A DNA stretch of 41,366 nt, from assembly GCA_947306745.1 (NCBI GenBank), contig CAMZHH010000006.1, forward strand, positions 1 through 41,366, given 5' to 3'. Below, in pieces: positions 25,855 to 38,902 of this stretch. The stretch's first letter is position 1, and every line of letters starts with the position of its first letter. Source of the DNA: an uncultured Candidatus Saccharibacteria bacterium (GTDB taxonomy: Bacteria > Patescibacteriota > Saccharimonadia > Saccharimonadales > Saccharimonadaceae). The position numbers and the translations under genes are program-made. Below the pieces are notes generated by a model, which did no database searches, had not been told where the DNA came from, and saw only the letters and a program-made list of their open reading frames with translations.

Positions 25855-26621
25855 AATTCCCAAAGACGATTCGCTATAAAAGCTTCGATCAAGATTTTGC
25901 CGAAACGCGCAACCAAGATTTTCACCTTCCCGAGAATTATCAATGGACACATAGTAATCCTTTTTATCGCTTTTTTGCGATGTGTTTTTATCCCATCGTC
26001 GTCTTATTTTCACTTTGCTATCTCAAATTAACGGCACATATCACAATCAAAAATCGCTACCTTCTCCGTCACGCCCGTGAAGGATACTTTCTATACGTCA
26101 ATCATACGCAGTGGTTCGGCGACGTCGTAAATCCTTTCGTGCTCACATTCGCTAAGCATCCTTACATTATTTGTAGCCCAGCTAATTTAGGCATACCAAT
26201 TATTGGCAAAGCATTACCAACGGCTGGCGCTTTACCAATTCCAGATAATCTTCACGATATGAAGAAACTTAATGACGCTATCGAAAAACGTATTAAGCAA
26301 AAGAAGGCCATCGTTGTATATCCAGAAAGTCACATGTGGCCATATTATACAGGCGTACGCCCATTCAATCCCGCCGCCTTTCATTATCCAGCCAAATTAC
26401 ATACACCAATCTACGTCGCCACCACAACTTACAAAAAGAGTACTTATCCATGGCGTAAAAAACCAAAAATTACCATCTATATCGATGGACCATTCTATGA
26501 CGACGAAGATGCCCCACGCAAACAAAACATTAATGATTTAATGCGCTACGTACAGCTAACTATGAAACGTCGCTGCAAACATAGCACTTACGAATATATT
26601 AAATATAAACAGAAATCTTAA
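25851..26621 (+). CDS. PlsC-like acyltransferase
   Basis: YVNHTQWFGDVVNPF, IICSPANLGIPIIGKALPTAGALPIPD, VVYPESHMWPYY. Confidence 0.82.
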   Translation: MKFPKTIRYKSFDQDFAETRNQDFHLPENYQWTHSNPFYRFFAMCFYPIVVLFSLCYLKLTAHITIKNRYLLRHAREGYFLYVNHTQWFGDVVNPFVLTFAKHPYIICSPANLGIPIIGKALPTAGALPIPDNLHDMKKLNDAIEKRIKQKKAIVVYPESHMWPYYTGVRPFNPAAFHYPAKLHTPIYVATTTYKKSTYPWRKKPKITIYIDGPFYDDEDAPRKQNINDLMRYVQLTMKRRCKHSTYEYIKYKQKS

Positions 26622-27490
26622 TTCTTTTTAATGCCACGCTTATAGCCCGCAATATCGCTATAACTAAACTTATAGTCTAACTTCTTACCACACGCCTTTT
26701 CATAAGCCTCTACGCGTTCCTGGTAATCTTTTTCTGCCATAAATTTACTATTTTCTTTGTGGCTCTTCTTAGGATCCGGATAAATTGGCTCCAAAATATG
26801 AATCGTATAATCGAGCTTCACAAACTGCTCGTTATCATCCTCGTCGGTGTCCTGCATTTCAATAAAAATCGGTACAACTGGCGCTCCGGCCTGCGCAGCA
26901 AATAAATACGTGCCACGCTTGCATGGACGCGGTTTGCGATAGTTAAACCACAATTCTTCTTCTGGATAGATAACGATAAAATCGCCATTTTCAACCATAC
27001 TTTTAATTTTTGGAATAAAAGTCTTTAGGATATAATTCGGCGTTTTACGTAGCGGCACTAAACGTTGATTATAAATCAGATAACCATTAAAACCTTCCAT
27101 CGCAAGGTTTGTTTCCTGTGCTACAAGGTGAATTGGTTTATGATATTTCTTCTTAATTACGTAACGCGGAAAGATACTATCGAGAGGATTAAAGTGATTA
27201 TTTGTAATAATCGCACCTTTTTTAATCTTATCTAAGTTTTCCCAGCCTTCAACTTTAATATGCTTTTTATGCATTGCCGTAACGATATCTTCCATCAAAA
27301 ACACCGGACGACTTTTAATGAAATACCAGAGTTTATTTTTGCGATATTTAAAATATTTTTCAATCGCCTCCTCGGCTTGCTCATCAGTCAAAGATGGGTC
27401 ATCCAATTCAGCTTTCGTATTATAATTACCTGCTTTCGCAAGTTTTTTGATGTTTTCAATTACTGGACTTTTATCGCCACCAATAATCAT
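26618..27490 (-). CDS. PlsC-like acyltransferase
   Basis: ITNNHFNPLDSIF (NHx4D), DFIVIYPEEELWFNYRKPRPCKRGTYLFAAQAGAPVVPIFI. Confidence 0.85.
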   Translation of the reverse strand: MIIGGDKSPVIENIKKLAKAGNYNTKAELDDPSLTDEQAEEAIEKYFKYRKNKLWYFIKSRPVFLMEDIVTAMHKKHIKVEGWENLDKIKKGAIITNNHFNPLDSIFPRYVIKKKYHKPIHLVAQETNLAMEGFNGYLIYNQRLVPLRKTPNYILKTFIPKIKSMVENGDFIVIYPEEELWFNYRKPRPCKRGTYLFAAQAGAPVVPIFIEMQDTDEDDNEQFVKLDYTIHILEPIYPDPKKSHKENSKFMAEKDYQERVEAYEKACGKKLDYKFSYSDIAGYKRGIKKN

Positions 27491-28456
27491 CTAATTCCTC
27501 GTTTCCTGCCCACTTTCAAAAATCTTTTTAAAAGTCACTTCGGCCTTCAAAATTTCTTTAACGCGTTCCGTCATTTGCGCCAAGCGTTCTTCATCTCCCT
27601 TTACGCTCTTCTTTGAGAAAGTTTTCTTTTCTTTCTCAATGGTTTTATAAAATGCCGAGTGCTTTGCATACTCCCAAAATAATTCTTCGTAATCCGTACC
27701 GTCATAATGCCATGGCTTAAAGAATAAGTTATAGTGCACAATTTTTGGGTCTTTCATCGGATGATGATCCGGTGTTGGCATTGCATTCCATGCAATATCC
27801 AAATATTTTACGCGACCCACGCACATTGCATTTAAGTAATCCTGATCTGGCGCCACCGTATCAAAATCATATTTATTTAACAAATACAAAAAGTGTTCGC
27901 AAAATTCTTCTTCGCGGAATTTTTCAAAATCAATTACCAACACACCAGAATTAAAATACCTGTCGTGCTGAATGCCAACCGCATCATCAAAATATTTACA
28001 GAACAACGGATTTCCCTGCGTCGACATATCTACGCAAGCTGCAATCAGATTTCCCTTCAAATCAGTCTCAAATAACTTCGCCACATCATCGTTTACGATA
28101 ATATCGCTATCTAAATATAAACCTTTGTCATACTGCGGAAACATTTCCGGCAAGAAAATACGATAATAAATCGTTGGCGTAAAATAATCTGCCTTCAGTT
28201 GTGTCGACTTGCGATCAGAAATACCACTCAAAGTCTCTTGCATTTCTATCGCAATAATATTTACATTTTCTTCGTGACCAACATTTAGCTTCTGCAACTT
28301 GCGCAACGAACGACGAGTTAAATTATGATATACCACATGTAAGTTATACTGGTATTTCTCGCTCGTATGATCAATCAAAGAAGCCAATGCTGTCGATAAA
28401 TACGGTGCATAATTTTCGTCAACGCTAAAAAATACTGGCACTATTTTCTTTTTCAT
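27491..28456 (-). CDS. Glycosyltransferase family 8
   Basis: VPVFFSVDENYAPYLSTALASL, KGLYLDSDIIVNDDV (DxD), FNSGVLVIDF, DQDYLNA. Confidence 0.93.
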   Translation of the reverse strand: MKKKIVPVFFSVDENYAPYLSTALASLIDHTSEKYQYNLHVVYHNLTRRSLRKLQKLNVGHEENVNIIAIEMQETLSGISDRKSTQLKADYFTPTIYYRIFLPEMFPQYDKGLYLDSDIIVNDDVAKLFETDLKGNLIAACVDMSTQGNPLFCKYFDDAVGIQHDRYFNSGVLVIDFEKFREEEFCEHFLYLLNKYDFDTVAPDQDYLNAMCVGRVKYLDIAWNAMPTPDHHPMKDPKIVHYNLFFKPWHYDGTDYEELFWEYAKHSAFYKTIEKEKKTFSKKSVKGDEERLAQMTERVKEILKAEVTFKKIFESGQETRN

Positions 28457-29268
28457 TTTTCAATCCTATCCTTCACGGCCAGATACTCTTCAAGGACATC
28501 ATCAAAAGCGTGACATTTCAACACGCTATGCATTTTCTCAATATTCCACGGTTTAATCTTCTGTGTATGAAAAACCGGCCAAAATCTAAAAGTAGTCGAG
28601 AAATGACGAAATACTGTCTCGCCAGTCTCTTGTTTCTGCTCATTAAATTTACGATCCACCAATAGCTTTTTCTTTGCATAAATATTAATCGAAGTCTGAT
28701 CTGGCAACATCATCTTAGCCCACTTGATTCGATTACGCGTCTTCTTAAATAGACCGCTCTCACGAATTAATTCCATATTCATCAACAGTACGCCAGAATT
28801 CATATAATCTTTTTCGCGCAAATTAGTGCGAATCCAGTGCTGACCATAATAATCTACCGCGCCAATGATCTCGTATTCTGAATTATCCATCTTATAGAGC
28901 AAATTCGGCTCTTTTAGCGCGACGACATCCGTATCAAGATACAGAAGCTTCTTTGGTAATTTATCTACTAAATCCGAATAAAGACGCAATAAACAATACG
29001 GCGTAAAGAAAGTAGATAGATTCGCGCGCGGCATATCGGATTGAAATTCTTTAGTCGCGTCAATTAAGGTAATTTTGTGCTTTGGATTCTTCTTTTGTAG
29101 GACTTTCTCAAGTTCGCGCATGCTTTTTTCGGTTATTTCCTTATAGCCGCGCATTTTCATCGTCATCACAAAAATATTCAAATTCGTCTTTGTATTTTTT
29201 GCTAAAGACAACGTCGAGATAATCAGGCCATCGAGGATATTTCTATCACCACAATACAATACGTTCAT
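28453..29268 (-). CDS. Glycosyltransferase family 8
   Basis: LLYLDTDVVALKE (DxD), YMNSGVLLMNM, DQTSINI. Confidence 0.92.
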   Translation of the reverse strand: MNVLYCGDRNILDGLIISTLSLAKNTKTNLNIFVMTMKMRGYKEITEKSMRELEKVLQKKNPKHKITLIDATKEFQSDMPRANLSTFFTPYCLLRLYSDLVDKLPKKLLYLDTDVVALKEPNLLYKMDNSEYEIIGAVDYYGQHWIRTNLREKDYMNSGVLLMNMELIRESGLFKKTRNRIKWAKMMLPDQTSINIYAKKKLLVDRKFNEQKQETGETVFRHFSTTFRFWPVFHTQKIKPWNIEKMHSVLKCHAFDDVLEEYLAVKDRIEK

Positions 29269-29273
29269 AATAG

Positions 29274-29714
29274 CTATTCCTCATTATAGCATGCTACTAC
29301 ATAATCGTCTTGTAGCCACACTTCAGCTTCTTTTAAGGCTAACGCGTTAATATTATGAAAGCCAAGCGCGATTCCCTTTCCTTTCGCCTTGGCATAACTT
29401 TCCTTAATGGCCCACACCCGGGTGAAATCTTCCGCCGTCTTTATCCATGCCAGCTCCTCTGGCGTACATATCCTTTTCATGGCATGTTTTTTCATACATA
29501 CCTTTTGTATGTCGATGCCAATTTCCTTATCTGATATCGCGCAAGCAACATATTCTCCGCTATGGCTCAGATTAAAAAACAGTTCTCCACTTTCTAAATA
29601 CGGCTTTCCGTATTCGTTATAGCGGAGCTTATAATTCGCAATTCCGTTTAAACGCAAAACTTCGTCTAATAATTCCTTAGACGAAGTATGTTTTTTAAGA
29701 TAAATTTTACGCAT
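29274..29714 (-). CDS. 4'-phosphopantetheinyl transferase (Sfp/AcpT type)
   Basis: FFNLSHSGEYVACAIS, EIGIDIQ, RVWAIKESYAKAKGKGI; start at MRKIYL overlapping the ACP stop. Confidence 0.88.
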   Translation of the reverse strand: MRKIYLKKHTSSKELLDEVLRLNGIANYKLRYNEYGKPYLESGELFFNLSHSGEYVACAISDKEIGIDIQKVCMKKHAMKRICTPEELAWIKTAEDFTRVWAIKESYAKAKGKGIALGFHNINALALKEAEVWLQDDYVVACYNEE

Positions 29715-29943
29715 CCCGTTCTTGGTGCTTCTCGATATACTCAATGATATCACCTACAGTCTGTAAGCTTTTGATATCCTTATCTTGAATTTCGACACCA
29801 AATTCTTCCTCAAACGCGCCTACCAAGTCAACCAAATCCAATGATTCTACGTCGAGATCTTCCACCAAGTTCGTCTTTTCGTTGAGTTTTTCTTTATCAA
29901 CATCCAAAGTCTCGGCAATCAAATTGATGACTTTATTCTTCAT
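29707..29943 (-). CDS. acpP: Acyl carrier protein
   Basis: LVEDLDVESLDLVDLVGAFEEEFGVEI. Confidence 0.92.
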   Translation of the reverse strand: MKNKVINLIAETLDVDKEKLNEKTNLVEDLDVESLDLVDLVGAFEEEFGVEIQDKDIKSLQTVGDIIEYIEKHQERDA

Positions 29944-31519
29944 TATTATCTTCCTCTATTAGCTTACTGCGAAGAATCTTACCGTTGTTATTTCTAGGCA
30001 TTGGATCACTACGCAAACGGACCATCGCAATCTGACGGTTCCTCGCTTTATCCTTGTTGTATTTATAAATTATATCATCAAAATACTCTTCGTCGCCAAA
30101 ATACGCGTCATTTGGATAAATTGAGGCGATTATTTTATTGCCATACTCATAAACCGCTACCTCTGCTACTCCCTCATCGCGCGCCAATGCGGCCTCAATT
30201 TCCTCTGGACTAACGTTCTCGCCGTTGCTAAGAATAATCAAGTTCTTTTTACGACCAGTCACATAGATAAAGCCATCCTCATCAATACGGCCTAAATCAC
30301 CCGTATAAAGATTACCGTTCTTCAAAACTTCGGCAGTGGCTTTCTTATCTTTATAATACCCCTTCATTACAATATCGCCACTTATGACAATTTCACCGTC
30401 AATAATCTTAACATCTACTCCGCGACAAGGCTGACCAATGCTACCATCGCGACGCCAATTATTACGATTAACCGATACAACCGGAGAACATTCCGTAATG
30501 CCATAGCCATTCAAAATCTCCACACCGATACTGCGGAACCATTGAATATACTTCGTGTCCAGATGTGCGCCGCCGCAAATAATATATTCCAAATTTCCGC
30601 CAAATTCTTTTAGCACTGAGCCGAAAATTTTCTTGCGCATATCAATGCCAATCTTCATTGCGCCATTACTTAATTTAATTCCGAACGATAATTTCTTATC
30701 GCTCTTCTGACGACGCGCCTGGCGCCAAATTTGACGGTACAAAGTTTCTACCACCATTGGTACAGCAAATACCGTATCCGGTTCGGCAACCTTAAAGTCA
30801 TCAATTAAATGCTTCAAACTACCGCTCACAAAAGTACGATTATGGTAGTAATACGGCATCAATGCAGAAGTAACGAACCCGAAAGCATGATGATATGGCA
30901 AGAAACTAATCACCTTTCCGCCAGGTGTAAAGATAGCCGAGGCGCCATAAATATCCGCTGCAATATTTTTTTGCGATAGCACAACAGCCTTGCTAAAACC
31001 AGTCGTACCAGACGTAAAGAAGATCATCGCATCCGCTTCGACGTCTACTTTAAACTTCTTACTCAATTTCTTACCAGCTCTAATATAACTATCAATCTCT
31101 TCGAGCGGAAAGGTATTGCGCAAGTATTGTTCTACCTGTTCACAGTAATTCAACGAGTAATAAATCGCATACACGTCTGCAGTCTTTAGCTGACGACGCA
31201 TGGTCTCCTCGTCGCCATCTTTATCAATCGCCACGCACACATTGCCACTAATCATAATAGCCAAGGCAGTTATGATCCAGTTGTAGCTATTCTCGCCAAT
31301 CACGGCAATATGTTTATTTTTATACTTGTTTGCAAAATACGCCGCTAAATTGCGCACATCATCGTAAGTTTGAGCAAAAGTCTTTTTTCTAACTTTGCCG
31401 TCATCATTGAACATAAAGGCGATTTTCTTCTCATCGTCTTTATATAGCTCAACTAAATCTTTGATACTATGTATTTCCGGATTCTCATAGTAATCATATG
31501 GCGCATTAGGCTTTTTCAT
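29933..31519 (-). CDS. AMP-dependent acyl ligase (FadD / acyl-ACP synthetase-like)
   Basis: MIFFTSGTTGFSKAVVLS, GYGITECSPVVS, YTGDLGRIDEDGFIYVTGRKKNLIILSNGENVSPEEIE, NGKILRSKL. Confidence 0.93.
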   Translation of the reverse strand: MKKPNAPYDYYENPEIHSIKDLVELYKDDEKKIAFMFNDDGKVRKKTFAQTYDDVRNLAAYFANKYKNKHIAVIGENSYNWIITALAIMISGNVCVAIDKDGDEETMRRQLKTADVYAIYYSLNYCEQVEQYLRNTFPLEEIDSYIRAGKKLSKKFKVDVEADAMIFFTSGTTGFSKAVVLSQKNIAADIYGASAIFTPGGKVISFLPYHHAFGFVTSALMPYYYHNRTFVSGSLKHLIDDFKVAEPDTVFAVPMVVETLYRQIWRQARRQKSDKKLSFGIKLSNGAMKIGIDMRKKIFGSVLKEFGGNLEYIICGGAHLDTKYIQWFRSIGVEILNGYGITECSPVVSVNRNNWRRDGSIGQPCRGVDVKIIDGEIVISGDIVMKGYYKDKKATAEVLKNGNLYTGDLGRIDEDGFIYVTGRKKNLIILSNGENVSPEEIEAALARDEGVAEVAVYEYGNKIIASIYPNDAYFGDEEYFDDIIYKYNKDKARNRQIAMVRLRSDPMPRNNNGKILRSKLIEEDNNEE

Positions 31520-31531
31520 ACAGTCTTATCT

Positions 31532-31537
31532 ATTATA
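31532..31537 (-). promoter_or_regulatory. -10 box TATAAT of the acyl-ligase operon (12 nt from ATG)
   Basis: minus: ggTATAATagataagactgtATG. Confidence 0.6.
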
Positions 31538-31553
31538 CCACTCACGTAAAGAG

Positions 31554-31559
31554 TATAAT
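31554..31559 (+). promoter_or_regulatory. -10 box TATAAT, 8 nt from ATG (putative leaderless)
   Basis: TATAAT-aataagat-ATG. Confidence 0.6.
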
Positions 31560-31567
31560 AATAAGAT

Positions 31568-31945
31568 ATGAAGAAGACGAAAATTGCCCTTTGCGGCAGC
31601 ATGAAAGTTAAAGCACAAATTATCGCTCTAGGCGAAGAGCTCGAAAAGCGTGGCTACGAAGTATTACTACCAGAAGAATGTATCAAATCACTGCCAAAAG
31701 CCGAAGCTTCTCGCGCCCACTTCAAACGCATTATCGAGCAAGCCGACAAAGTCCTCATCGTCAATGCAACCGCCCATGACACTGAAAACTACATCGGCCC
31801 AAATAGCTTTGCCGAAATCGCTTTCGCCTTCTATTTCAACAAGCCTATTTATCTCTGGCATGATATTTATGAGCTATTCCGCGACGAGCTAGAAGCTTGG
31901 GGCGCTGTCTCCCTTAAAGGCAATTTAAATAATTTGGAGCAATAA
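31568..31945 (+). CDS. Nucleoside 2-deoxyribosyltransferase-like protein
   Basis: KIALCGSM N-terminus, ELEKRGYEVLLP, ADKVLIVN, YIGPNSFAEIAFAFYFNKPIYLW (GxxSxxEIAxA with putative catalytic E83). Confidence 0.72.
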   Translation: MKKTKIALCGSMKVKAQIIALGEELEKRGYEVLLPEECIKSLPKAEASRAHFKRIIEQADKVLIVNATAHDTENYIGPNSFAEIAFAFYFNKPIYLWHDIYELFRDELEAWGAVSLKGNLNNLEQ

Positions 31946-34822
31946 ATGAAAGCCAAGACCACTGATTCTTACGCCGAATTGGATCCCGTTTTTGTCGGAC
32001 GCAAAGAAGAGTTAAAACGTTTTAATTATAAATACGAAGATTTCAAAAAGCACTATCCTGACAATAACATCAATATAATAAATTACTACGGCATTGGCGG
32101 TATTGGTAAAACCTCTCTGCTCAATCACATTCAAGACATTCTCAATCAAAATAACGAAAAATATTATTTTGTTGATCTAAAGAACAATACAAATCCTAGT
32201 CTCATACTAAAAAACGCCAGCATCAGTTTAGCGAGAGCTTACGATTTTGAATTCCCAAAATTCGATCTTGCCATGTTAGCATATCTACGCCGCACCCTAA
32301 GCGTTACCGAACATGCTGAAATTGAATCTTTCATTGGGCGTAGCAAGTTATTAAGTTTATTATTTGATGCTTCGAGTTTTATCCCTAGCGAGACACTCGC
32401 ACTTACAACTTCAATTATCAAACTCGCAGACTCCACCATCGCATACGTGCGCAATATTTTTGACGACGATCCTAAAACTGCCGTTCAAAAAATCGAGTCT
32501 CTCTCCACGGACGAATTAATCAAACGTCTTCCCGCTTATTTTGCGGCCGACATGCGCGAAAACATTAAAAAGCTCAACGACCCATTTTTCTTCCTTATTG
32601 ATACTTTCGAAAACCTCGTCGACGAAGTCGAAACTAAAGGCCACACCGCATATTACGACAATTGGCTTCGTGGCGATAATGGCCTAATTCAAAACATGCC
32701 AAATTGCCTTTGGATTATTGCCGGTCGCGAAGAATTAAAATGGGATCAAGAAAATAAGGACTGGAAAACGGCTATTCATAAATACGAACTACACGATTTT
32801 TCCGAAGAGGAAACTCTCGAATTGTTGAACGCCCAAAACGTCGCCAGTGACAATATTAAGAAAGCTATCTATAAACTCACCAATGGTACACCGTTTTACG
32901 TTGACACCTGCGTGCGTCGTTATTACAGTCTGCTCGACCGCAACGAAATCGTAACTCCAGAAAAATTTGGCCACGACAAAGATGAACTTATGGAACGTTA
33001 CACGCGCGATTATGATTTAGAGACTAAACAAATTATTTACGTGCTATCATTCGTTCAAAGTTTTAGCAGAGATAAAGCCCAAACCATCTTAGAAAAGGTG
33101 ATTCCAAACTATTCACGCGAACGCTTCCAGAAATTGTTAAATCTATCCGTTATTTCGATCGACAATAATGATAATTACTACATCCAAAATACAATTTCAC
33201 AAATCTTCCGCACTAATTGCGATGAAGATTTGTATCAGAAAATTCTCAATCAACTCGGCGCATATTATTTAGAAGAAAAGCAATATTCGGATTTTCTAAC
33301 ATTATACGAACGAAAAATCTTAACAAATAAAGAAAACCAAAACGCTCTGGAAGCCATTGCTGACGAACTGAACAGAAAATTCAATCACGTACTGCCAAAA
33401 TACATATTCAGTCATTCGTATGATGCGAATTTTTATTACCAAAATCAAAAATACCTTGGCCTACTACCTATTTCATTAGTCCTAGCCAAATATTCCGACA
33501 CAAACAACGAAGATATCGTAACATTCGTCGAACAAATTACCGATAAAATTATTACAGAAAAATATCAAAACTTTAAATATCTCGTCGAATATCACTACAA
33601 CTATAGCAATGCCACATTAATTAATTACTATCGTAGTATCACGCCCATCAGTAAACAGAAAAAAGATTATTACAAAACCTTAATCCGTTGCGAATCACTA
33701 TCTGGAACTCCCGAATCAATCACAGAAACCGTCAATCAAGCCTGGGCGGAAATTACTAACCAATCAGATCGTTTCGATATCTTGCAATACGCTAAACTAT
33801 CAGCCACATTTAAACCATTCGTTGAGCAACTAGACTTATCGTCCGACAATTTCGACAGCACATCACGTTTCGCCTGTGCAGCATTTTTAGCATTTCTCTT
33901 CACTGGTAATCGCTACGATTTATTCACCGTGGATAAAGCATTCATCGACTATTCCGAGTGTAAAAAATATCTCGATATTTGCGAAAAACTTTTGCAAAAT
34001 AATGCCCAATCATCATTCAATGATTACGCAACTTTTATGATGGCAAAAATCACATATTCAAGAAATAGCCAAATCGAACATTCTGAAATCAAAAAATTTA
34101 CCACCGATTTTATAGAAAAGCTAAGAGCCCTGCCCGACTCTTCGGCTGAAAAGTTGACATATTTAGTTCAGTCATTCAATTTAGCTGATGATGGCTTTCT
34201 AGATATACCTTCCGGCAGCATTAATTTCACCTACATCAACGAAGACCATTGTCCATTAAAAGATGTTACCCTCCGTGTCTATGACGCAGATGGACATTTC
34301 CTAGCCGAAGTCGTTACCGACGAACAAGGCAAAGCATCGGTTATTCTAAACGTCCTATACGGTATGCATTATTTATATAAATCAATTAGCACTCCAAAAT
34401 ACTATCGAGACGCAAACTATATTAACGACCCTTACCTCTACCATTTTTATCTCAGCCCAGAACAACCAGATTTACATACTACCGTTACCATTGCCTATCC
34501 AAAAGGAGGCATCGCTTTTCAATTGCTTGATCAAAACGAATTGCCAATTCCAAATCAAAAAATTAAGATTCGTAAAGCAAATGGCGATGAAATTGTTGAG
34601 CTCAAAACTAACGAAAACGGCCAAGCTGGTGCACGTAATTTACCATGCGGACAATATTCGTACCAATTCCTCACGGCCACTGACAAAAGCGAACATCAAT
34701 TTGAAATTGAGTCGGATAAACAAGTTATTATAAAAGATTTAATTGACGAAAAGCTTACTGGCAAAGCATTTCACGAATCGCCGAAAGCTAAAAAACGTAG
34801 TCTACTCCGCCACAAAAAATAG
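31946..34822 (+). CDS. STAND-type NTPase with helical region and C-terminal beta-sandwich repeats
   Basis: VFVGRKEELKRF, YYGIGGIGKTSLL (P-loop), FFLIDTFENL (Walker B), LWIIAGREEL; ATG immediately follows the upstream stop. Confidence 0.82.
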   Translation: MKAKTTDSYAELDPVFVGRKEELKRFNYKYEDFKKHYPDNNINIINYYGIGGIGKTSLLNHIQDILNQNNEKYYFVDLKNNTNPSLILKNASISLARAYDFEFPKFDLAMLAYLRRTLSVTEHAEIESFIGRSKLLSLLFDASSFIPSETLALTTSIIKLADSTIAYVRNIFDDDPKTAVQKIESLSTDELIKRLPAYFAADMRENIKKLNDPFFFLIDTFENLVDEVETKGHTAYYDNWLRGDNGLIQNMPNCLWIIAGREELKWDQENKDWKTAIHKYELHDFSEEETLELLNAQNVASDNIKKAIYKLTNGTPFYVDTCVRRYYSLLDRNEIVTPEKFGHDKDELMERYTRDYDLETKQIIYVLSFVQSFSRDKAQTILEKVIPNYSRERFQKLLNLSVISIDNNDNYYIQNTISQIFRTNCDEDLYQKILNQLGAYYLEEKQYSDFLTLYERKILTNKENQNALEAIADELNRKFNHVLPKYIFSHSYDANFYYQNQKYLGLLPISLVLAKYSDTNNEDIVTFVEQITDKIITEKYQNFKYLVEYHYNYSNATLINYYRSITPISKQKKDYYKTLIRCESLSGTPESITETVNQAWAEITNQSDRFDILQYAKLSATFKPFVEQLDLSSDNFDSTSRFACAAFLAFLFTGNRYDLFTVDKAFIDYSECKKYLDICEKLLQNNAQSSFNDYATFMMAKITYSRNSQIEHSEIKKFTTDFIEKLRALPDSSAEKLTYLVQSFNLADDGFLDIPSGSINFTYINEDHCPLKDVTLRVYDADGHFLAEVVTDEQGKASVILNVLYGMHYLYKSISTPKYYRDANYINDPYLYHFYLSPEQPDLHTTVTIAYPKGGIAFQLLDQNELPIPNQKIKIRKANGDEIVELKTNENGQAGARNLPCGQYSYQFLTATDKSEHQFEIESDKQVIIKDLIDEKLTGKAFHESPKAKKRSLLRHKK

Positions 34823-34830
34823 CCTCATGC

Positions 34831-34836
34831 TACAAT
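34831..34836 (+). promoter_or_regulatory. -10 box TACAAT, 6 nt from ATG (putative leaderless)
   Basis: TACAAT-aaaagc-ATG. Confidence 0.5.
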
Positions 34837-34842
34837 AAAAGC

Positions 34843-35916
34843 ATGAGCACTTCGCAAGAACCAAAAAAGGATTATGCGCCAATTGTCACGACAATCTTCA
34901 TCGTCATTGCCGGTATTATTGGCGGCATTATATTAATATTTACCACTCTTAATTCCAATCACCATATTCCGCAAAATGGCGAATCTGACTTCATTGAAGT
35001 GACTAGTATAGAAGACCTCGCGCCAAATCTTCAAACCGGCAAAATCTATTCCACCCTAGAAGACGTCGAAAAAGACTTTGAAATCGACTCGACCGATGAT
35101 TTTGATTTTGAAAATAATTCATACGCTCTAGTCGTCGTTTACTATAATATTTTTTCTCAAAAAGACGTCACGCCAGATTACTACACTTATGAAGATAGCG
35201 ACCATATTAAAATCGGCATCAGCTACACCGAACTATGTAGTGAAGGTGGCGTTTATCGCGATTTCGCCTATTACTTGATTCCAGTTGCGCCAGACACACA
35301 AAAAATTCAAATCACCAAAGAAACGACCCCGCGAAATTCCGCCTGCGAAGAAAACAATAATCTATATGAGGTTAAAAAGCCGATTATTTACCTCTACCCA
35401 ACTTCAACTATCGACGTGACCGTAAAGCTCGCTCATCCAGAACTGATTACTAGCAGCTATCCAAAATACCAAGATGTCTGGCAGGTTACTGCCGATCCGA
35501 CCGGCAAGCTAATCGACAAAACCACCGGCCGCGAACTCTATTCCCTCTACTGGGAAGGCGCCAATCGTAACGCCAAAATGCATGAAGATGGTTTTATCGT
35601 CAAAGGCGCCGACATGGCCAGCTTCCTAGAGGCCAAGCTCGCAAAGCTCGGTCTTACCGACCGCGAGGCCGAAGAATTCATCATCTACTGGCTTCCAATT
35701 CTTGAACAAAATAACTACAACTACATTCGATTCGAAACGCTCGCCGAAATCAATTCTTATATGCCGCTCGAAATCAATCCAAACCCAGACACACTCATCC
35801 GCGTCATCATGGATTATAAACCGCTTGACGCGCCAATCGACATCACTGAACAAAAGCTCACCACGCCGACCCGCACTGGCTTCACTGTCGTGGAGTGGGG
35901 AGGGGTTAAAATATGA
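34843..35916 (+). CDS. Membrane-anchored protein with conserved-looking KPIIYLYP...YWEG domain
   Basis: N-terminal TM; KPIIYLYPTSTIDVTVKL...SLYWEGANRNAKMHEDGFIVKG...FIIYWLPILEQNNYNYIRF. Confidence 0.75.
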   Translation: MSTSQEPKKDYAPIVTTIFIVIAGIIGGIILIFTTLNSNHHIPQNGESDFIEVTSIEDLAPNLQTGKIYSTLEDVEKDFEIDSTDDFDFENNSYALVVVYYNIFSQKDVTPDYYTYEDSDHIKIGISYTELCSEGGVYRDFAYYLIPVAPDTQKIQITKETTPRNSACEENNNLYEVKKPIIYLYPTSTIDVTVKLAHPELITSSYPKYQDVWQVTADPTGKLIDKTTGRELYSLYWEGANRNAKMHEDGFIVKGADMASFLEAKLAKLGLTDREAEEFIIYWLPILEQNNYNYIRFETLAEINSYMPLEINPNPDTLIRVIMDYKPLDAPIDITEQKLTTPTRTGFTVVEWGGVKI

Positions 35917-36347
35917 GCAAAACCGCCAAAAAATCCGACACGATTCGAAAAACCGTGTCCATCATCTGCAGTATTCTTCCCGCCCTCGCCGCGCTCTATG
36001 GCCTATGGGGTGGCATTAATAGCATCAACGCCGACTATATGGCTCGGCTAGGCGTTATCTTCATTTGGCCATCAGTCATCGCTCTCGCTATCATTATTAC
36101 CGATTTGCTAATCACTTTCGATATCATTAAAGGCGGTCAATTCTTCTCTTTCGCCAGCTCGGCCGTCAAAATCATCTTCATTCTCATCTTGATTCCAAGC
36201 CTACTTTATAACGTGCGACAAGAAATGATGCACAATATGTCTAACCTAACGTTTGACCTACTCCTAATCGGAACTCTCGCCATGGCCGCCGTTCCATCGG
36301 TTCTAAACTTTATTCGCCGCGCCTCAGAAGCAAAGAATAAAAAATAA
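35913..36347 (+). CDS. Multi-TM hypothetical protein
   Basis: ATGA overlap with the upstream gene; about four hydrophobic segments. Confidence 0.75.
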   Translation: MSKTAKKSDTIRKTVSIICSILPALAALYGLWGGINSINADYMARLGVIFIWPSVIALAIIITDLLITFDIIKGGQFFSFASSAVKIIFILILIPSLLYNVRQEMMHNMSNLTFDLLLIGTLAMAAVPSVLNFIRRASEAKNKK

Positions 36348-36358
36348 GCAACAAAAAA

Positions 36359-36434
36359 TGGAGCCGTTGACTGGGATCGAACCAGCGACCTGCTCGTTAC
36401 GAATGAGCTGCTCTGCCAGCTGAGCTACAACGGC
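36359..36434 (-). tRNA. tRNA-Thr(CGT), CCA encoded
   Basis: GCCGTTG/CAACGGC acceptor, TTCGTAA anticodon loop, GGTTCGATC T-loop. Confidence 0.94.
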
Positions 36435-36468
36435 GTCCGTACGATTATTATATCACAATCTATCAAAA

Positions 36469-36491
36469 GAGCCCAGCATTCCGCCGGGCTC
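36469..36491 (-). terminator. Intrinsic terminator of the 36502-37416 gene
   Basis: GAGCCC...GGGCTC stem then TTTT on minus strand. Confidence 0.6.
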
Positions 36492-36501
36492 ATTAGTTCT
36501 C

Positions 36502-37416
36502 TCAGTCAATATCGCTTTGATTGAATTTTGCTTCGTAGATAAAATATCGATTCTGCGTTAGTCCGGTCCCGTTCATTAGCACGTATGCCTTTCCGTTTGC
36601 GAAATCAATACTCTCCATTTCAAGATACGGTTCTTTCACGATAAATGCGCGCAAGCGCTCAGTATTTACGTCAAACTGATAGATAATATTTTCATTCATA
36701 TCAAGTCCAACTTCCCAAGCGTTATGCATATCTTCTTTGTCAATCCAGTTAACCAAGTAAGCCTTGTCGTGATAATAGCCAATGTCTTGATTCGTAAACA
36801 TCGTATTCGTGTATTGTTCGGTTATAAGCCCACCAAATAAGCCAGTGGTACTATATAACATGGTGCCAGAACGTAAGTAATACTGACCAACTCCATCGTA
36901 GGCAATACCAGTAGCGCCAGTCGGCAGTTCAAATGTTTCGAGCATCCGAAAATCTTCCGCGTTAATTCGCGCAGCGAGATTATAATCCCCGCTATTACCT
37001 CGAATGCTCACCGCAATTAATTCATTTGAGTTTGGATTATAAGTCATGCCATTAGCATGCCCAAGTTCCATGGTTTCACCGCTCGTAAAAAAGTTGCCAG
37101 TAACGTTCGAAAGATCGTTCCGGTCAATAATTATCAGCTGATTATTTGTTTCTCCGCCTTCAGCCGCACTTCCACGTGGGCGTCCAGCAATTACAAAATA
37201 ATCTTCCGTGATTGCAATACTTTGCACCGAGCCGACACCTTCAGGCTTATCGCCTTCATAGATCAGCTCCAAAGACAGCGGCGTTACCTCGTCGACTCCA
37301 AGAGTCAATGCGTCTAACGTCGATTTCCTTGGCCCTGGAATATACTCCCAAGCTAGCAATCCTAAGATCACCACTGCACATAAAATCTTCATACCACATC
37401 TCTTCAAAACAACCAC
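36502..37416 (-). CDS. Hypothetical membrane-anchored protein, possibly beta-propeller-like
   Basis: N-terminal hydrophobic anchor, repeated ITEDYFVIAGR / ANGMTYNPNSNELIAVS / ATGIAYDGVGQYYL blade-like segments; alternative starts possible. Confidence 0.7.
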   Translation of the reverse strand: MVVLKRCGMKILCAVVILGLLAWEYIPGPRKSTLDALTLGVDEVTPLSLELIYEGDKPEGVGSVQSIAITEDYFVIAGRPRGSAAEGGETNNQLIIIDRNDLSNVTGNFFTSGETMELGHANGMTYNPNSNELIAVSIRGNSGDYNLAARINAEDFRMLETFELPTGATGIAYDGVGQYYLRSGTMLYSTTGLFGGLITEQYTNTMFTNQDIGYYHDKAYLVNWIDKEDMHNAWEVGLDMNENIIYQFDVNTERLRAFIVKEPYLEMESIDFANGKAYVLMNGTGLTQNRYFIYEAKFNQSDID

Positions 37417-37545
37417 CTCCAGAAATAATACAGAGAGAACTTTTAAGGTACTATATTAGTATTTTTACATATTTTTTCGCTTAGGTCAAATCCTCGACTT
37501 TCTACTTGCATTCTCCTCGGTTTTCGTATATACTAATCTCAATGC

Positions 37546-37622
37546 GGGCTCGTAGCTCAGTTGGTTAGAGCGCCTCCCTGTCACGGAGGAGGTCGCGCGT
37601 TCGAGTCGCGTCGGGCCCGCCA
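37546..37622 (+). tRNA. tRNA-Asp(GTC), CCA encoded
   Basis: GGGCTCG/CGGGCCC acceptor, discriminator G, CCTCC-CTGTCAC-GGAGG anticodon arm. Confidence 0.95.
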
Positions 37623-37635
37623 TTTTAAGAAATTT

Positions 37636-37659
37636 CACCCTCCGGGGTGCTATTTTTTT
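37636..37659 (+). terminator. Terminator after tRNA-Asp
   Basis: CACCC-TCCG-GGGTG then cta T7. Confidence 0.75.
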
Positions 37660-37726
37660 ATTTAATTTCCTCTTCAGTGCGCCCATGGGGTGATTTTTTG
37701 TGAATTACGCCGAAAGGCGGGCGGAA

Positions 37727-37751
37727 TAAAAAAAATACACCCCATGGGTGT
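37727..37751 (-). terminator. Terminator after tRNA-Gly
   Basis: minus: ACACCC-ATG-GGGTGT then ATTTTTTTT. Confidence 0.75.
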
Positions 37752-37754
37752 TTG

Positions 37755-37829
37755 TGGTGCGGGTAGAGGGAGTCGGACCCTCATCTCATGCTTGGGAAGC
37801 ATACATAATAGCCGCTATACGATACCCGC
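37755..37829 (-). tRNA. tRNA-Gly(CCC), CCA encoded
   Basis: GCGGGTA/TACCCGC acceptor, TATGC-TTCCCAA-GCATG anticodon arm. Confidence 0.94.
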
Positions 37830-37869
37830 AAAACTCTCCTAAATTATACCATGCACACTGTGCTTATGT

Positions 37870-37875
37870 TAAAAT
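37870..37875 (+). promoter_or_regulatory. -10 box TAAAAT, 8 nt from ATG (putative leaderless)
   Basis: TAAAAT-atactcat-ATG. Confidence 0.5.
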
Positions 37876-37883
37876 ATACTCAT

Positions 37884-38870
37884 ATGCAGCCCAATAATTA
37901 TTTTTATGGCGCAACCCAACAACAAAGGCAACCAAACTATCAATACCAACAGACACCGAACATCCCTACTCCAAAAAAGCGCAACGTTAGCACGATCATC
38001 TGCATCATCTTGTCCGTCATTATTGCCGGCCTCATCATTTTTATTCTCGTCGACAAATTAATCTTCACAAAGAGCGAAATCATCACGCTCGAAGAATCCG
38101 CTCGCGTCGACCTTTCTCCACTCTCCCAAATTAACCCAGACGAAGTGGCCTACAAGGACGCTCTCGCCGGCCGTATCTTCACCGTCGACTCCACTTACCA
38201 TCAATACATTAAATTCATTTCAAACGAAAAATACGAATTCCATTATTGGCGCAATCCTGACACCGACCACTACTACCTAATTCCTAGCATCGACAATGGT
38301 ACATTTACCGTAGAAGGAAAAGAAATCAAACTTAGCGGTGGCGATTCGTTTAAGATTGTTCACAATTACCTCGTTAAAAGCACAAATAGCCATTCCAGCA
38401 ATACCGGTGCTATCTACTTCGATAACTATTCCCTTACGCAAACTTCTCAATACTTTGATGATGCCCTCACGAGCTATATTGAAAAAATCCGCAAAGCCGA
38501 TCCAACGCTCGCGAAGGTAGAATTAGCACGCGTAAGCCTCGACTACTTATCTTGTAAGGCCGACAAGGTAGAGATTGAAGATCCAGATAACGAGTTCGCC
38601 TGCACTGGCACTTACGTCTATTATTTTAATGACGAAGCCGCCGAAAAAATCATCCAAGACACGCCAAACTATCATACTTTTCACGACGTAATTCTCTACG
38701 AAAAAAGTTACTATCGCTATAGCTTTAATCATATTTACACTGACAATGCTCGCCATTCCCTCACCAATCGTAGCCCATTTACTATTCGAGTCAATTCCGA
38801 TAACAGCTTCCGCGTTACGAGCATCAAGGACGACTACAAGCTCGAACAAACCGACGGCCAAGACAGCTAG
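37884..38870 (+). CDS. Hypothetical single-TM protein with Q/N/Y/P-rich N-terminus
   Basis: MQPNNYFYGATQQQRQPNYQYQQ..., TM STIICIILSVIIAGLIIFILV; start moved from 37851 to fit the -10 box. Confidence 0.75.
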   Translation: MQPNNYFYGATQQQRQPNYQYQQTPNIPTPKKRNVSTIICIILSVIIAGLIIFILVDKLIFTKSEIITLEESARVDLSPLSQINPDEVAYKDALAGRIFTVDSTYHQYIKFISNEKYEFHYWRNPDTDHYYLIPSIDNGTFTVEGKEIKLSGGDSFKIVHNYLVKSTNSHSSNTGAIYFDNYSLTQTSQYFDDALTSYIEKIRKADPTLAKVELARVSLDYLSCKADKVEIEDPDNEFACTGTYVYYFNDEAAEKIIQDTPNYHTFHDVILYEKSYYRYSFNHIYTDNARHSLTNRSPFTIRVNSDNSFRVTSIKDDYKLEQTDGQDS

Positions 38871-38873
38871 GCA

Positions 38874-38902
38874 TTGCTTTTTACGCGCTTTTATGGTATA
38901 AT
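38874..38902 (+). promoter_or_regulatory. Promoter TTGCTT-17-TATAAT, -10 8 nt from ATG (putative leaderless)
   Basis: -35 38874-38879, -10 38897-38902, ATG 38911. Confidence 0.65.

Follow-up and report, generated by a model that had tools for sequence, protein, structure and literature searches.

A candidate split module of an NDT-fold protein and a STAND NTPase in a Saccharibacteria genome

Introduction

Fusions of DRHyd domains to STAND or iSTAND proteins have already been described (Kaur et al. 2020, PMC7159879; PMC8195603), so the idea of joining a nucleoside 2-deoxyribosyltransferase (NDT) fold to a STAND protein is a known one. DRHyd, TIR and SLOG domains belong to one fold class (PMC9503650). 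In DNPH1, which shares the NDT-like fold, the nucleophile is a glutamate, E104, and the general acid is an aspartate, D80 (PMC10603095).

Here we describe two abutting genes in a stretch of 41,366 nucleotides (the window) from a Saccharibacteria genome of 935 kb in 36 contigs. A first-pass annotation had proposed that these genes encode a nucleoside-deoxyribosyltransferase-like protein and a STAND NTPase, transcribed from one promoter and acting as a split sensor/effector pair.

Results

Layout of the locus

Both open reading frames were found on the + strand where the first-pass annotation had placed them (Table 1), as were the CGSM start of the small protein, its GPNSFAEIAFA segment containing E83, and the P-loop GIGGIGKT of the larger protein (residues 49-56). 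Judged by sequence, both frames exceed what chance would give: the 125-aa frame is a member of a conserved family, and for the 958-aa frame remote homologues align over residues 1-440. The TAA of the small gene abuts the ATG of the NTPase gene, with zero bases between them, and translational coupling from the first gene to the second is plausible through the GGAG 6 nt upstream of the NTPase start. The abutment is weak evidence when taken alone, because a third of the same-strand neighbors in the window are equally tight (gaps of -20 to +5 in 11 of 33 pairs).

That one promoter serves both genes is plausible, as a TATAAT box precedes the first ATG, but this box has no -35 partner (the promoter scan gave no two-box site there) and promoter-like sites in the region occur at the level of chance (14 vs 12.6 +/- 3.6 in shuffles). 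The GC content was 0.451 in the small gene, 0.376 in the NTPase gene and 0.444 in the gene downstream of the pair, and the lower value of the NTPase gene would also fit separate origins of the two genes.

Table 1. Coordinates of the genes, motifs and signals of the locus, given as positions in the window
Feature	Position	Strand	Basis
TATAAT, -10-like box, 8 nt 5' of the small-gene ATG	31554..31559	+	sequence
Small gene, 125 aa, NDT/DNPH1-fold (DRHyd-type) protein	31568..31945	+	ORF, AlphaFold, Foldseek, family alignment
E83 codon, candidate nucleophile	31814..31816	+	E in 61/61 aligned rows
GGAG, Shine-Dalgarno-like, in the 3' end of the small gene, 6 nt upstream of the large-gene ATG	31936..31939	+	sequence
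Large gene, 958-aa STAND NTPase with C-terminal SpaA/CnaB-like domains	31946..34822	+	ORF, Pfam, alignment with relatives
Walker A GIGGIGKT, residues 49-56	32090..32113	+	G49, G51, G52, G54 and K55 invariant in 7 relatives
Walker B-like FLIDTFE, residues 216-222	32591..32611	+	motif and alignment
GRE, sensor-1-like, residues 260-262	32723..32731	+	G260 and R261 invariant
GxP (within NGTP), typical of STAND NTPases, residues 314-316	32885..32893	+	G314 and P316 invariant
First beta-rich (prealbumin/CnaB-like) region, residues 769-799 of a larger domain	34250..34342	+	Pfam bMG3 1.1e-6, under gathering score
SpaA (CnaB-like) domain, residues 861-931	34526..34738	+	Pfam SpaA 6.2e-10, over gathering score; PDB collagen adhesion protein 6.8e-8

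Fold and conserved residues of the small protein

An AlphaFold model of the small protein, based on an alignment of 26 family members, had a pLDDT of 94.8 and a pTM of 0.88. Foldseek comparison with the PDB ranked the nucleoside 2-deoxyribosyltransferase of T. brucei (2a0k) and human DNPH1 first, each with a probability of 1.00; the E-values of the NDT/DNPH1 matches were 7e-4 to 8e-3 and their TM scores about 0.6. SPARTA TIR domains ranked behind these, which is expected because TIR, DRHyd and SLOG domains form one class (PMC9503650). On the basis of the model, the small protein is assigned a Rossmann-like fold of the NDT/DNPH1 (DRHyd) type. Pfam, NCBIfam and PADLOC, searched with the single sequence, gave no match above threshold, searches of PDB sequences with the protein or its profile gave no usable match, and Pfam PF05014 (Nuc_deoxyrib_tr) did not match the window protein, one relative reaching 19.8 bits vs a cut-off of 28.8.

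In the alignment of the small family, the columns S11, N66, Y75, G77, E83, A87 and E107 were invariant, and D60 was kept in 54 of 61 rows. By hhalign, E83 was placed on the Glu of the DNPH1-like GIELG motif in a short and weak match (19 columns, 3% probability). E83, which lies at the expected place, is a likely candidate for the catalytic residue of the protein, and cleavage of an N-glycosidic bond is its predicted activity. The earlier description of the protein as nucleoside-deoxyribosyltransferase-like agrees with the fold found by AlphaFold and Foldseek and with the family-wide invariance of E83.

Distribution and context of the small-protein family

Members of the small family were found in 36 of the 151 sampled genomes of the taxonomic family and in 81 of 287 from the phylum. 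At one locus (L009, 433-2421), the small-family domain forms the N-terminal part of a ~306-aa frame that continues as a DUF84/NTPase_I-T domain (Pfam, E 1e-20), and this gene lies directly downstream of a gene for the ribonucleotide reductase small chain (3e-74). Similar loci (L011, L013, L025, L029 and L031) carry the small-family domain in frames of ~303-309 aa, likewise downstream of the ribonucleotide reductase small chain; DUF84 was confirmed by Pfam in L009 and the other long forms were judged alike by sequence. Frames of this type point to a two-domain enzyme that would clean the nucleotide pool. Standalone members adjoin genes for NUDIX (two loci), Maf, DUF84 and YfbR-like HD proteins. 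From these fusions and neighbors, the role of the small family looks like nucleotide hygiene.

A motif search and reading of the neighbors revealed no STAND gene beside a small-family member at any of 56 loci, for which flanks of ~1.5 kb made the adjacent gene visible and not the wider islands. The family is kept without a STAND partner in a hygiene-like context. At the level of the family, this metabolic setting answers to an outcome that the first-pass annotation had named as evidence against its own proposal, the small protein being conserved alone as a salvage enzyme.

The copy in the window differs from the rest of its family. Its branch is the longest in the family tree (1.3, the median being 0.32), and among the 61 aligned rows K69 is missing from this copy alone. 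Two further copies are present in the same genome, a canonical one (G000:C3) and another (G000:C16) that lies beside a PF05014-like (DNPH1-type) gene (L039, 4716-5600). The divergence of the window copy and its missing K69 are traits expected of a protein recruited to a new role, and such recruitment is conceivable.

Motifs and domains of the NTPase

The 958-aa protein is classed as a STAND NTPase by its Walker A and B motifs, sensor Arg and GxP motif. The first-pass annotation had made the same assignment, and alignment with relatives bears it out in that the Walker residues are conserved, with the Walker B Asp replaced by Glu in one of seven aligned STAND proteins. Pfam models of the AAA/NACHT type all scored below their cut-offs for the window protein (NACHT 19.6 of 26.7 bits, nSTAND6 13.4 of 27.7, NB-ARC 12.5 of 23.5); one relative (L067) exceeded the NB-ARC cut-off (24.5 vs 23.5 bits), and profile matches to solved NB-ARC chains were weak. 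The PADLOC models gave no convincing match, the AriA model reaching 7e-4 over the P-loop and the small family scoring at chance level.

No N-terminal effector domain was recognised in the 958-aa protein, whose homology to its relatives begins within the first 20 residues, and no TPR was called in it. AlphaFold placed helices at residues 427-745 in a model that was too poor for a fold search (mean pLDDT 41.8, three sequences). The hydropathy maximum was 1.26 in a 19-residue window, and because there is no strongly hydrophobic segment the protein is likely cytoplasmic. Its SpaA/CnaB-like end is unusual for a STAND protein, to our knowledge. Other SpaA matches in the same genome fell in long ORFs of 1582 and 2372 aa, and Pfam scans of other STAND relatives detected no SpaA domain in any of them. 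One narrow literature search, a weak negative, found no papers joining NACHT with prealbumin-like domains.

Relatives of the NTPase and their neighborhoods

Relatives of the NTPase were rare, aligning with residues 1-440 at 24-30% identity. Six genomes contained them: two Saccharibacteria of another genus in the same taxonomic family (G277 and G430) and, from Bacillota and Proteobacteria, a member of the Oscillospiraceae, a member of the Selenomonadales, Vibrio mytili and a Lachnospira. The relatives were mostly solitary genes, several with TPR or TPR-S. No close relative of the 958-aa protein was found in the first scan of genome contigs, in viral contigs or in phages, and short phylum-wide matches to the NTPase profile, at about 16-23 bits, were not counted as relatives. 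A phage-encoded origin of the pair was rejected, the search of phages giving no relative of the NTPase and weak matches to the small family.

None of the six STAND relatives had a small-family gene beside it, and a profile search found no member of the small family anywhere in their genomes. Conserved pairing, which the proposal of a sensor/effector module had led one to expect, was therefore not borne out from either side (0/56 small-family loci and 0/6 STAND relatives), and rare adjacency of the homologues was the outcome that the first-pass annotation had said would count against it.

An Mrr gene was observed near one of the Saccharibacteria relatives, PDDEXK_4 and WYL genes upstream of the Lachnospira relative, and a tyrosine-recombinase-like gene, identified by eye, directly before one further relative. 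These surroundings, although the cases are few, suggest that some of the relatives lie among conflict systems. A plasmid of Priestia megaterium (NZ_CP026738.1) also encodes a relative of the NTPase, with 25.5% identity over 25% of the query. At this locus (L123, 4163-8496) a HEPN-annotated gene is followed in the same direction by the STAND-TPR gene, with Mrr and DUF87 genes nearby, and the two may be a sibling two-gene module. In the Selenomonadales genome, two related STAND NTPase genes were seen close together on the same strand (L070, 2265-6502).

The insertion slot

The acyl-ligase gene upstream of the pair (29933-31519) is present in 13 of 41 genomes of the genus, that of the window included. 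In four relatives (L057, L063, L064 and L066) ~20-30 bp separate it from the gene orthologous to that at 34843, and both the small gene and the STAND gene are absent; other species hold other genes in this slot. Because these four relatives show the slot without either gene, the two were probably gained together as a cassette in this lineage, two steps or losses elsewhere being the alternatives. No convincing pair of direct or inverted repeats was found at the ends of the insertion.

The variable slot as a whole extends from the acyl-ligase gene to a SpoU methylase gene (31520-38900) and contains three tRNA genes (36359, 37546 and 37755). On the other side, positions 26618-31519 contain the acyl-ligase (AMP-binding), an acyl-carrier-like 78-aa ORF, a phosphopantetheinyl-transferase-like ORF and two glycosyltransferase-like ORFs on the - strand, and several of these recur beside the acyl-ligase in relatives. 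Directly 3' of the cassette are two membrane-protein-like ORFs (34843-36347), the first of which is kept beside the acyl-ligase in relatives that lack the cassette.

Discussion

We tentatively favor the hypothesis, to which we give slightly less than an even chance, that the two genes form a split conflict module in which a STAND sensor-switch is paired with a separate, nucleotide-cleaving partner of the NDT fold. Its direct basis is the fold, the conserved residues, the adjacency of the genes and their shared presence or absence in the slot; from these we infer the enzymatic activity, the control by the STAND protein and the role in defence. Under this hypothesis, a two-gene cassette would have been acquired as a unit by a Saccharibacteria-type lineage, and the helical middle and SpaA/CnaB-like end of the STAND protein would sense a signal of invasion or stress. 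The signal would lead to ATP-driven assembly of the STAND protein, which would activate or release the co-translated NDT-fold enzyme. The enzyme may then cut the N-glycosidic bond of a nucleotide, with a dNMP or an NAD-like molecule as its substrate, so that replication of mobile elements would be starved or the cell halted. In effect, the module would be a two-gene counterpart of a DRHyd-STAND or TIR-STAND immune receptor. We consider it doubtful, at the same time, that all of the following hold: that a split immune receptor exists in Patescibacteria, that a recruited hygiene enzyme serves in it as a trans-acting effector, and that the sensor end of its STAND protein is made of adhesin-type SpaA/CnaB domains.

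A module is made plausible by the fold with E83, the STAND motifs in a protein with no effector of its own, the joint absence from the slot, the abutting genes, the diverged small copy with a canonical one (G000:C3) retained elsewhere in the genome, the defence-like surroundings of some STAND relatives (one with a HEPN gene upstream) and the published fusions of DRHyd domains to STAND-type proteins. Against it are its occurrence in a single genome with no second pair, the lack of the partner gene at all 56 small-family loci and beside all six STAND relatives, the housekeeping appearance of the small family, the commonness of abutment, the weakness of the matches to libraries of known defence systems and the difference in GC. 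Of the sensor/effector pair as first proposed, the NDT-like fold, the STAND motifs and the joint slot absence are in its favor and the expected co-occurrence of homologues is not; set against the homologue tests, the divergence of the local copy and the joint absence of both genes in relatives keep the proposal plausible.

The main rival is that the two are chance neighbors in a variable slot, one an enzyme that cleans the nucleotide pool and the other an orphan STAND protein, working independently and sharing a transcript by accident. This is a serious possibility, if short of probable, and it would account for the hygiene context of the small family (the DUF84 fusion, the ribonucleotide reductase small chain, NUDIX, Maf and YfbR-like genes), for the mostly solitary STAND relatives and for a layout seen in a third of the window's same-strand gene pairs. 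It fits less well with the pair being jointly missing from the slot in four relatives, and with a small protein that is unusually diverged in a genome that keeps a canonical copy. Alternatively, the NTPase may be a whole defence or regulatory device, with the small enzyme as its accessory, or as an immunity factor, clearing away a toxic or signalling nucleotide that arises elsewhere. The solitary STAND relatives in six genomes, several with TPRs, are in line with a self-sufficient NTPase, and the best-studied protein of the DNPH1-type fold is a hydrolase of unwanted nucleotides (PMC10603095), but the cassette contains no recognised gene for making a signal; we think this arrangement unlikely. 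Least probable is that the locus has no selected function, being a chimera, degenerate or newly assembled, of a STAND protein and adhesin-derived SpaA domains. Such domains do occur in the two long ORFs of the same genome and were not found in the other STAND relatives scanned, but the intact frame of 958 codons and the conserved catalytic residues argue for selection.

If the pair does cooperate, an ultra-small genome would offer a case of a house-cleaning nucleotide enzyme that has become an immune effector separate from the NLR-like switch controlling it. Regardless of the pairing, our data point to DNPH1-fold proteins that form a group across the phylum and are fused to, or encoded beside, house-cleaning NTPases and ribonucleotide reductase. 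A nucleotide-cleaning role is a concrete and testable guess for this small family, which Pfam does not clearly recognise.

Comparison with known systems

The small protein resembles DNPH1 and the nucleoside 2-deoxyribosyltransferases (PF05014, DRHyd superfamily) in its fold, in a conserved Glu at what is probably the catalytic site and in the house-cleaning context of its family, and is unlike them in that it misses PF05014, which its relatives reach weakly. The NTPase has the Walker A/B, GRE and GxP motifs of NB-ARC, NACHT and AP-ATPase STAND proteins with C-terminal TPRs, and its relatives have TPR or TPR-S; unlike these, it has no called TPR, ends in SpaA/CnaB-like domains and lacks a recognised effector in the same chain. 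The pair on the Priestia plasmid is similar in having a related NTPase preceded by a shorter gene of the same orientation, with Mrr and DUF87 genes in the vicinity, but there the upstream gene is annotated as HEPN and is not NDT-like. With the DRHyd-STAND, DRHyd-iSTAND and TIR-STAND conflict systems, the locus shares a nucleotide enzyme of the TIR/DRHyd class tied to a STAND-type module. In those systems the enzyme is fused, whereas here it is encoded by a separate abutting gene, comes from a metabolism-linked family and is found in this arrangement in one genome. The use of a hygiene-family protein as a separate partner would be at most a variant of the DRHyd-STAND idea.
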